Shown here: positions 7,735 through 10,721 of the stretch, in pieces | Layout of the letters: the number at the start of each line of letters is the position of its first letter | Position numbering within the stretch: the stretch's first letter is position 1 | From: Bacteroidota bacterium | GTDB lineage: Bacteria > Bacteroidota > Bacteroidia > Chitinophagales > Chitinophagaceae | Direction of reading: 5' to 3' | Assembly (NCBI GenBank): GCA_018268015.1 | Contig: JAFDXJ010000036.1 | Coordinates: forward strand, 62,001 to 126,000 | Length of the DNA: 64,000 bases | Translations under genes and position numbers: made by a program | Notes under the pieces: generated by a model | Databases searched by the model: none | What the model was told of the DNA's origin: nothing | Seen by the model: only the letters and a program-made list of their open reading frames with translations

Positions 7735-9168
7735 ATGTACGAACATTCATCCAGGAAAGAAAACCAGGAGCTTACAGAATTATTAAAGCAATATGAATTA
7801 TTGCTTTCAGGACGACAGCCCGCCTTTCTTGAAGAAGAATCATTTGAAAAGATTATTAATTATTTTGATGAAAATGATGAATTCCCAAGAGCTTTAGAAG
7901 CCGCAGAAAATGGTTTACTTTATTTTCCCTACTCAATTCTATTACTTCTAAAAAAAGCGGATTTACTCATCGCCATGAACCAGTATCATGAGGCTTTGGA
8001 TGTCTTAAACCACCAGGCTCTATTTAGCTCCTACAATATCAATGTTTATATTTTAAAGACAGATGCCCTACTGGCTCTGGATGAGCAGGAAACAGCCATC
8101 GATTTATTGCTTGAAGCAATTCATGTTTTTGAGGGGGAAGAAAAAATAGAATTGCTTTTTGAACTTTCTGATGTGTATGATGATTACGAATTATTTGACA
8201 AAGTGTTTGATTGTCTTCAACTAGTTCTGGAACAAGAGCCTTCCAATGAAGAAGCATTATATAAAATCTGTTTCTGGACAGATTTCACCGGGAGGAATGA
8301 AGAAAGTATTCGTATTCATCGGGATATTATTGAAGATCAACCATACAATGAACTGGCCTGGTTCAATTTGGGTACCGCTTACCAGGGTTTGAAATTATAT
8401 GAAAAAGCTATAGACGCTTATTTATATGCCATAGCTATAGATGAAAAATTTGACAGTGCCTACCGCAATTTGGGCGACGCTTATATGCGTATCCGGAATT
8501 TCCGGGAAGCCATTCAGTCTTTGGAAAAAATGCTGGAATTATCACGGCCTGAAGAAGTGATATATGAAGCCATCGGCCATTGCTATCATAAACTAAAAAA
8601 CTTTGCCCAGGCCAGATTTAATTACAGGAAAGCATCACACATCAATCCTGAAAATCATAAGTTATTTTATAAAATAGCACTCACCTATATTCATGAAAAA
8701 AACTGGCAACAAGCCATGAAACCGCTAGAAACGGCTTTGCGTATGTTTCCATCTTCCATGGTCTATCATATGGCTCTCGGAGAGTGCTTTCTGGCTATGG
8801 GTAAAAATAAGGATGCCATTCATTATTTCAGTATCGTAGTACATAAAAGCCCTAGAAAGGTATCTGGTTGGGAATCTCTGATACATTGCCTCTATCAATC
8901 CGGCTTTTTAGATGAGGCTAAGGACCAATGCCTGGTTGCCTTAGCTGCTACAGGCCAAAAAGCCTCTATTTATTATTTATATAGCGCCGTATTATTTGCA
9001 TCCGGGAAACCCAAAATGGCACTGCAGCAACTGGAAACGGCCATTATACTTTCACCAAAGGGTCTGCGAAAATTTATTGACTTGAATCCTGTCATTCTTC
9101 AAAATGCTCAGGTTGTGGCTTTATTGGCTCAAATGAAGAAACACAAAAAGAAGTCCACCCGAAAATAA
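7735..9168 (+). CDS. Tetratricopeptide repeat (TPR) protein
   Basis: A 477-residue protein built almost entirely of TPR helical hairpins from about residue 45 to 450; recognisable repeats include AWFNLGTAYQGLKLYEKAIDAYLYAIAID, SAYRNLGDAYMRIRNFREAI and VYHMALGECFLAMGKNKDAI. TPR proteins act as protein-binding scaffolds. There is no signal peptide or membrane segment, so it is probably cytoplasmic. The C-terminus is basic (KKHKKKSTRK). It is followed by comA and aroE on the same strand, but comA has its own promoter-like element, so cotranscription is uncertain. Partner and role unknown. Confidence 0.88.
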   Translation: MYEHSSRKENQELTELLKQYELLLSGRQPAFLEEESFEKIINYFDENDEFPRALEAAENGLLYFPYSILLLLKKADLLIAMNQYHEALDVLNHQALFSSYNINVYILKTDALLALDEQETAIDLLLEAIHVFEGEEKIELLFELSDVYDDYELFDKVFDCLQLVLEQEPSNEEALYKICFWTDFTGRNEESIRIHRDIIEDQPYNELAWFNLGTAYQGLKLYEKAIDAYLYAIAIDEKFDSAYRNLGDAYMRIRNFREAIQSLEKMLELSRPEEVIYEAIGHCYHKLKNFAQARFNYRKASHINPENHKLFYKIALTYIHEKNWQQAMKPLETALRMFPSSMVYHMALGECFLAMGKNKDAIHYFSIVVHKSPRKVSGWESLIHCLYQSGFLDEAKDQCLVALAATGQKASIYYLYSAVLFASGKPKMALQQLETAIILSPKGLRKFIDLNPVILQNAQVVALLAQMKKHKKKSTRK

Positions 9169-9222: not shown

Positions 9223-9996
9223 ATGAATAATTTTAATTTAGCTCAACTGCCCCCCAGAAGCGAAAAGCCAAGGAAGAATGGTTTGACCATGGTCATGGAT
9301 AAAGGTCTGAGTGTAGGAGAAGTAAAGAATTTTTTAAGTGCTGCTCATCCTTATGTGGACATGGTAAAACTTGGATTTGGTACTTCGATTGTTACACCTA
9401 ACCTACGTGAAAAAATTGAAGCATACCAGTCTTATGACATTCCCGTTTATTTTGGAGGTACTTTATTTGAGGCATTTCTCATCCGCAACCAGTTTGAAGA
9501 TTATATAAAAATGTGTAAAGAATATAACATTCACTATATGGAAGTAAGTGATGGTTCTATTACCATTCCCCATGCAGAGAAATGCGGCTATATTGAAAAA
9601 CTTACTAAAATAGGAACTGTTTTAAGTGAGGTGGGTAGTAAAGATGCTACACATATCATACCGCCCTATATTTGGATTAAACTCATGAAAGCGGAACTGG
9701 AAGCAGGATCTACATTTGTAATTGCGGAAGCACGAGAGGCCGGAAATGTAGGTATTTACAGAGGTACCGGAGAAGTGCGCGAAGGTTTGGTTCAGGAAAT
9801 TTTAACGGAAATACCCGGAGATCGTATCATTTGGGAAGCTCCTAAAAAAGAACAGCAACTTTATTTTTTACAATTATTAGGATGCAATGCCAATTTCGGG
9901 AATATTGCCTCCAATGAATTAATCGCATTAGAAACAATGAGAATTGGCCTTAGAGGCGATACATTTCATTTGTATTTAAATAAAGAAATGAAATGA
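9223..9996 (+). CDS. Phosphosulfolactate synthase family protein (ComA-like)
   Basis: ComA condenses phosphoenolpyruvate with sulfite to give (2R)-phosphosulfolactate, the first step of coenzyme M synthesis in methanogens and of sulfolactate formation in some bacteria. The 257 residues show the family run of TIM-barrel motifs: GLTMVMDKGLSV, DMVKLGFGTS, YFGGTLFE, YMEVSDGSI, FVIAEAREAGNVGIY, IIWEAPKK and GCNANFGNIAS. I chose ATG 9223, after AAAGAAAG and downstream of the promoter element, over the upstream in-frame ATG at 9178. It overlaps aroE by 4 bp. Which product this organism needs is unknown: no comB or comC gene is nearby. Confidence 0.85.
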   Translation: MNNFNLAQLPPRSEKPRKNGLTMVMDKGLSVGEVKNFLSAAHPYVDMVKLGFGTSIVTPNLREKIEAYQSYDIPVYFGGTLFEAFLIRNQFEDYIKMCKEYNIHYMEVSDGSITIPHAEKCGYIEKLTKIGTVLSEVGSKDATHIIPPYIWIKLMKAELEAGSTFVIAEAREAGNVGIYRGTGEVREGLVQEILTEIPGDRIIWEAPKKEQQLYFLQLLGCNANFGNIASNELIALETMRIGLRGDTFHLYLNKEMK

Positions 9997-10721
9997 AAAC
10001 TTATGGGCTGATTGGATTTCCTTTGGCACATTCTTTCTCTGAAAAATTTTTTACTGATTTTTTTAAAACACATGAAATTCCTGCAGTTTTCAAAAATTTT
10101 CCTTTGGAAAATGCAGCAGAATTTCCCCTTTTGATTGAATCAAACCCTGAAATCAACGGACTGGCTGTGACCATTCCATTGAAAAAAAGCATACTACCAT
10201 TTATAGAAAAAAAATCTTCTGAAGTGCAGCAATCCGGGGCCTGCAATTGCATCAAAATAAAGGATGGAAAAACGATTGGCTATAATACGGATATTGTAGG
10301 TTTTGAACAATCTTTTATGCCCCACATTTTGCCTCATGATAAACATGTATTGATATTGGGTACCGGTGGCGCCGCTGCAGCAGCAGCTTATGTTTGTAAA
10401 AAGAATAATATTGATTTTCTATATGTATCCAGAAGAAAAAAAGAAAATGCCATAACTTATGAAGAAATTGATGAAAATTGTATGAAGAAATTTTCAGTTA
10501 TCATTAATGCCACACCCATTGGACAGTTCCCGGATGTACAGGATTTTCCTTCCATTCCTTATCATTTGATTCATCAAAAACATTATTGTTTTGATATGAT
10601 TTATAATCCTGCCCACACACAATTTTTAATAAAAAGTGCAGCTCATGGAGCCAGGATACAAAATGGCCGGCAAATGCTGGAAATTCAAGCAAAAGAAAAT
10701 TGGAAAATCTGGAGTCATTAA
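9993..10721 (+). CDS. aroE: Shikimate dehydrogenase
   Basis: NADPH-dependent reduction of 3-dehydroshikimate to shikimate in aromatic amino acid synthesis. The 242-residue protein has GLIGFPLAHSFS at the N-terminus (shikimate-binding Ser pair), the catalytic Lys in VTIPLKKSI (about 64-72), GACNCIKI, GYNTDIVGF with the catalytic Asp, and the nucleotide-binding LGTGGAAAAAAYV (about 121-133). It is somewhat shorter than the 270-290 residues of E. coli-type AroE. Its ATG overlaps the comA stop (ATGA), which indicates translational coupling. Confidence 0.93.
   Translation: MKTYGLIGFPLAHSFSEKFFTDFFKTHEIPAVFKNFPLENAAEFPLLIESNPEINGLAVTIPLKKSILPFIEKKSSEVQQSGACNCIKIKDGKTIGYNTDIVGFEQSFMPHILPHDKHVLILGTGGAAAAAAYVCKKNNIDFLYVSRRKKENAITYEEIDENCMKKFSVIINATPIGQFPDVQDFPSIPYHLIHQKHYCFDMIYNPAHTQFLIKSAAHGARIQNGRQMLEIQAKENWKIWSH

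Follow-up and report, generated by a model that had tools for sequence, protein, structure and literature searches.

The stretch of DNA analysed here, 64,000 nucleotides in length and referred to as the window, carries a gene of the phosphosulfolactate (PSL) synthase family, comA, which lies between a gene coding for a TPR protein and the shikimate dehydrogenase gene aroE:

7735..9168, + strand, TPR protein (TPR families) upstream of comA and syntenic with it
9223..9996, + strand, comA, phosphosulfolactate synthase family (PF02679), 257 aa, ATG start 9223, TGA stop 9996
9993..10721, + strand, aroE, shikimate dehydrogenase (PF08501, TIGR00507), 242 aa, ATG 9993, TAA 10721

The 4-bp overlap between comA and aroE described in an earlier note on this DNA was borne out, the stop codon of the former and the start codon of the latter sharing the ATGA at 9993-9996. 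AroE matches PF08501 with an E value of 4e-14, and its best NCBIfam model is TIGR00507 (E 6e-48), with a score of 163 bits that is below the 200-bit cut-off.

The ComA protein matches PF02679 over positions 2-243 of the 243 of the profile (E 5e-87, 291.8 bits, for a cut-off of 25.2), and scores 191 and 153 bits, respectively, against the solved PSL synthases of B. subtilis (1U83) and M. jannaschii (1QWG). In a quick tree with long branches, it falls within a single group of Bacteroidota proteins, close to YitD of B. subtilis. Since the window ComA thereby belongs to the bacterial branch, its score of 258.4 bits with the archaeal ComA equivalog TIGR03849, under the 280-bit cut-off, may be expected. 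The AlphaFold2 model (pLDDT 91.9, pTM 0.90) has the TIM-barrel fold of PSL synthase, with TM scores of 0.88/0.90 to 1QWG and 0.84/0.95 to 1U83, and the three highest-ranking PDB hits of Foldseek (TM 0.82-0.95) comprise both natural PSL synthases together with a designed nanoparticle very close in sequence to the archaeal enzyme. In the same line, Lys140 of the window protein corresponds to M. jannaschii Lys137, the proposed general acid of PSL synthase, and is present in 82 of the 82 orthologs aligned. Most of the polar residues common to the window protein, 1QWG and 1U83 are invariant or nearly so across these orthologs, and nearly all the invariant ones are kept in the window ComA. The loss of key ligands, named in the earlier note as a sign against such an enzyme, was not found, both the conserved residues and the predicted fold being intact. 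Judged by all the sequence tests at hand, the ComA of the window is an ordinary PSL synthase.

Besides, second copies of ComA occur in the families f13, f23 and f35 (L220, L221, L222, L227) and are divergent, being 23-27% identical to the window ComA. Unlike the window protein, they have Gln at the Lys137 equivalent and also miss other residues, as does the copy found in f30; the second copies perhaps have a non-PSL role. A further relative of ComA is Hsa32, a plant protein of heat stress.

The source genome (G000; 2.89 Mb, 99.9% complete) contains a single copy of ComA. The absence of comB and comC nearby, pointed out in the earlier note, holds for the neighbouring genes (4.7-16.2 kb) but not genome-wide, as ComB and a PF02615 protein are encoded elsewhere, in addition to a cysteate fatty acyltransferase:

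G000:C48:237850-238515, ComB, one copy (PF04029)
G000:C48:135018-136103, ComC-family dehydrogenase, the sole PF02615 protein (400.6 bits)
G000:C61:2837-4129, cysteate fatty acyltransferase CFAT/SulA, found among the PLP enzymes of the genome

The four genes are dispersed in the genome, without forming a single operon, and the neighbourhoods of ComB and of the dehydrogenase, which were examined for more pathway genes, gave nothing informative. Candidate aspartate-type aminotransferases are present among the PLP enzymes, and proteins of the PAPS-reductase family, a possible source of sulfite, are also encoded. The best-scoring NCBIfam model of the PF02615 dehydrogenase is the NCBI L-sulfolactate dehydrogenase NF040650, even though the score of 254.9 bits stays under the 500-bit cut-off. 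The closest solved relative of this protein is a malate dehydrogenase, and it could instead have that function.

CFAT/SulA is the first committed enzyme of sulfonolipid synthesis. The G000 protein scores 578 bits to A. finegoldii SulA (7U7H) and to the CFAT structure 28EH, and 238 to serine palmitoyltransferase (SPT). SulA was reported to use cysteate and not serine as substrate, and to possess a unique Lys281 (PMC9304779). This lysine is found in the G000 CFAT and in 50 of the 50 CFATs that we aligned, SPT having Ala at that position. A divergent CFAT was considered for families f13 and f35 and rejected, their enzymes being nearer to SPT. In three other loci (L244 1146-4577 in f44, L245 3071-6397 in f41 and L246 972-4352 in f39), CFAT forms the C-terminal portion of a larger protein (about 1100 aa) whose N-terminal portion is of the fatty-acyl-AMP-ligase type (L246 scanned), and the ORF that follows, of some 350 aa, is alike in all three.

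Because the next enzymes of the pathway and the sulfonolipid-making enzyme are encoded in the genome as well, ComA most likely serves the supply of cysteate for lipids. More precisely, ComA would convert PEP and sulfite into (R)-phosphosulfolactate, which ComB, encoded elsewhere in the genome, would dephosphorylate to (R)-sulfolactate; the ComC-family PF02615 dehydrogenase would then oxidise sulfolactate to sulfopyruvate, and an aspartate-type aminotransferase would turn the latter into L-cysteate. Finally, CFAT/SulA would combine cysteate with an acyl chain into a 3-ketocapnine-type product, leading to a sulfonolipid of the capnine/sulfobacin type. Such a route would stand in for CapA, the enzyme producing cysteate from O-phosphoserine and sulfite in other CFAT-bearing Bacteroidota. 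Sulfite is the sulfur donor of the CapA reaction. We consider it probable that the window encodes a genuine PSL synthase feeding this ComB/ComC-like/transaminase cysteate route to sulfonolipid in replacement of CapA, on the basis of the genes present, the families they belong to, their diagnostic residues, and the pattern of co-occurrence and exclusion described below. For this organism, we infer from sequence each of the enzymatic steps, which aminotransferase takes part, what the dehydrogenase acts on, and that sulfonolipid is produced.

In a sample of 296 Bacteroidota genomes, CFAT is present in 108 and ComA exceeds its cut-off in 75; CFAT accompanies ComA in 66 of these 75, and ComB does so in all of them. 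CapA-range matches (6e-133 or better) were found in 36 genomes, all with CFAT and none with ComA, the 108 CFAT genomes being distributed as 66 with ComA only, 36 with CapA only, 6 with neither and 0 with both. Among the genomes devoid of CapA, 66 have ComA and CFAT, 9 ComA only, 6 CFAT only, and 179 neither. The same holds for the 40 CFAT-bearing genera sampled in the window's class: 23 have ComA, 14 CapA, three neither, and none both. As for G000 itself, its best match to CapA (E 2e-112) is inside the cystathionine-synthase-like range, and CapA appears absent from this genome, as judged by the score of the best PALP protein alone. In families f4 and f5, CFAT adjoins, or shares the genome with, a gene matching the CapA model, the two being adjacent in many loci; the L114 gene reaches 652.6 bits with the CapA cysteate synthase model NF053679 of NCBIfam, for a cut-off of 600, and a likely CapA adjoins CFAT in G037 (f2) with 509 bits, under this cut-off.

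The ComC-family protein of G000 was used as query to search for dehydrogenase orthologs, so that its tracking of ComA was a prediction open to failure. In the window's class, orthologs were detected in 27 of the 29 ComA genomes and in 0 of the 44 others. Moreover, neither ComA nor the dehydrogenase is found in G261, whereas two other genomes of the same genus have both, and ComA, ComB, CFAT and the dehydrogenase are jointly lost in G002. The proposal of the earlier note that ComA may feed a sulfonolipid pathway is hence supported by the presence of CFAT/SulA, ComB and the ComC-like dehydrogenase in the genome, and by the complementarity of ComA and CapA among CFAT genomes.

Six CFAT genomes, namely G064, G158, G162, G178 (f2), G261 (f3) and G254 (f44), have no ComA and no CapA-range gene, and they may rely on a third source of cysteate or on its uptake. 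CFAT lies beside a short-chain-dehydrogenase-like ORF in G064 and G158. The archaeal-type cysteate synthase TIGR03844 was discarded as another source, as it is over the cut-off only in f29, which is not a CFAT family. The ComB family, for its part, was also found in 87 genomes where ComA does not reach its cut-off; therefore, ComB probably has further substrates or roles.

A ComA-ComB fusion of 490 aa (PF02679 + PF04029) is encoded in Thiomicrorhabdus sp. Milos-T2 (L036 5983-7455), amid apparent nonulosonic-acid/glycan genes, a context that suggests a sulfolactate-decorated surface sugar. In Brevibacillus, comA overlaps comB, as read by eye. Both the fusion and this overlap support the idea of ComA and ComB cooperating in bacteria related to that of the window.

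Sulfolactate is an end product in B. subtilis spores. A first alternative, which we regard as rather unlikely, is that (R)-sulfolactate is likewise the final product of ComA and ComB in the window's organism, be it an osmolyte, a storage compound or an excreted sulfonate, the cysteate used by CFAT coming from another, unrecognised source. This would fit with YitD of B. subtilis being the nearest relative of ComA with a characterised structure, and with the eight ComA+ComB genomes of f13 and f35, which have no CFAT but only SPT-type enzymes; the ComA and ComB pair can therefore serve other ends. It would also fit with the dehydrogenase orthologs missing in f23, f6 and f7, although ComA, ComB and CFAT are present there, so that these families would need a substitute dehydrogenase on the route to cysteate. 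However, CFAT accompanies ComA in 66 of 75 genomes, none of which has CapA, and the tracking of ComA by the ComC-like dehydrogenase within the class (27/29 vs 0/44) likewise argues against sulfolactate as the final product.

A still less probable alternative is that the genes for ComA, ComB, the dehydrogenase and CFAT date far back and were retained by the same lineages without taking part in a common pathway, ComA having another substrate. ComA undergoes no more than three changes on the CFAT tree; the dehydrogenase goes the same way in 2-3 of these, and CapA the opposite way in 0-1. With only three independent ComA changes, genome-level p-values overstate the case, and a phylogeny-corrected pair test gave no significance, the independent changes being too few. 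This scarcity of changes and the dispersion of the genes in the genome are both compatible with inheritance only. Nevertheless, such an explanation does not account well for the exact complementarity with CapA, which is the maker of the very metabolite predicted, nor for the joint loss of ComA and the dehydrogenase in G261 and of all the genes in G002. The existence of the ComA-ComB fusion, and the conservation of nearly all the conserved ComA residues, also speak against it.

The CFAT tree groups the CapA-type CFATs with those of f2 in a supported clade, apart from the CFATs of the ComA families, even though f2 falls in the order of the window's organism. With regard to the PEP route to cysteate via ComA, ComB and the ComC-like dehydrogenase, we lean slightly towards it being ancestral in Bacteroidota and the commoner way of obtaining cysteate for sulfonolipids there, with CapA as a later replacement mainly in two sampled families.

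Coenzyme M as product, although the genome has ComA and ComB as well as a ComC-family protein, was rejected as highly improbable because no ComDE (sulfopyruvate decarboxylase) is over the cut-off, the ComDE beta model reaching just 35 and 29 bits for 221.5.

The comA-aroE pair is more than a chance arrangement. In checking its conservation, it appeared that almost all relatives of the window at family level have the order TPR-comA-aroE, with a spacing of -4 to +10 bp between comA and aroE in most of them, but that the 4-bp overlap itself is not general. The TPR protein keeps its position in these relatives with 49-64% identity, compared to 20-29% in other families, and the TPR-comA pair is found class-wide, aroE being often further along. 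Outside the family, the gap between comA and aroE is of about 0.1-1.3 kb and may accommodate a transporter gene, the genes seen there being of the PF04018 (undecaprenyl-phosphate translocase-like), VTT/DedA and small multidrug export types. Depending on the family, the slot holds differing membrane transporter genes (L042 2370-3305, L041 821-1462, L034 6746-7222). As spacing and intervening genes vary, the linkage to aroE and the shikimate pathway is treated as synteny, and our reading of the coupling is that of an old family-level gene order whose gap was closed locally. The tight order within the family might be taken to reflect a function shared by ComA and shikimate dehydrogenase, in terms of PEP or aromatic amino acids, but this is hardly credible in the light of the gaps of hundreds of bp to 1.3 kb with other genes inside, of the f23 loci, where aroE was not found near comA, and of the divergence of aroE down to 40-51% identity in family-level loci where comA is still 71-81% identical. 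The link via PEP to the shikimate pathway evoked in the earlier note was accordingly not found, the adjacency of aroE being part of a gene order seen throughout the class, into which various transporter genes were inserted.

The proposed cysteate route has its closest counterparts in the following known systems. The first is the archaeal coenzyme M pathway (ComA-ComB-ComC in M. jannaschii), with the same first three steps and homologous families (PF02679, PF04029, PF02615). It differs in that, here, ComDE is missing over cut-off, ComA and the dehydrogenase score under the archaeal equivalog cut-offs, and sulfopyruvate would be transaminated to cysteate for lipid. The second is the YitD/YitC pair of B. 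subtilis, linked to sulfolactate, in which ComA, whose structure 1U83 is the closest solved relative, and ComB also occur in one genome, whereas here the two genes lie apart and co-occur with CFAT and the dehydrogenase. The third is the CapA-CapB (Cys-CFAT) pathway of Capnocytophaga, Chryseobacterium and Alistipes, which shares the cysteate-using acyltransferase CFAT/SulA. In this known sulfonolipid route, cysteate is made by CapA/Cys from phosphoserine (PMC11211663), while in the window's genome, where the CapA-range gene is absent, it would come from PEP via sulfolactate. A comparable pair of interchangeable routes exists in methanogens, as the ComABC steps serve coenzyme M synthesis in several orders and others use cysteate synthase and an aminotransferase (PMC5695019). 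In methanogens both routes lead to sulfopyruvate, whereas in Bacteroidota they would converge on cysteate for lipid; besides, the Bacteroidota CapA is cysteine-synthase-like and not threonine-synthase-like. As far as the open-access literature shows, the route by ComABC-type steps has so far been described only from coenzyme M synthesis. In this literature, sulfonolipid and phosphosulfolactate are not named together, although papers on capnine synthesis that are not open access may do so, and the co-mention of sulfonolipid and sulfopyruvate concerns sulfoquinovose.

Sulfonolipids are outer-membrane lipids that are linked to gliding and made by gut bacteria. They also trigger colony development in a choanoflagellate (PMC3463246). 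In the literature that we found, the precursor of their headgroup is traced only to CapA/Cys. If the proposed route is true, most of the CFAT-bearing genera sampled in the window's class (23/40) would use a different, PEP-based route to cysteate, and genome surveys requiring a cysteate synthase gene (as in PMC11211663) would miss such producers. Finally, genes annotated as methanogen cofactor genes would then have a role in lipid synthesis.
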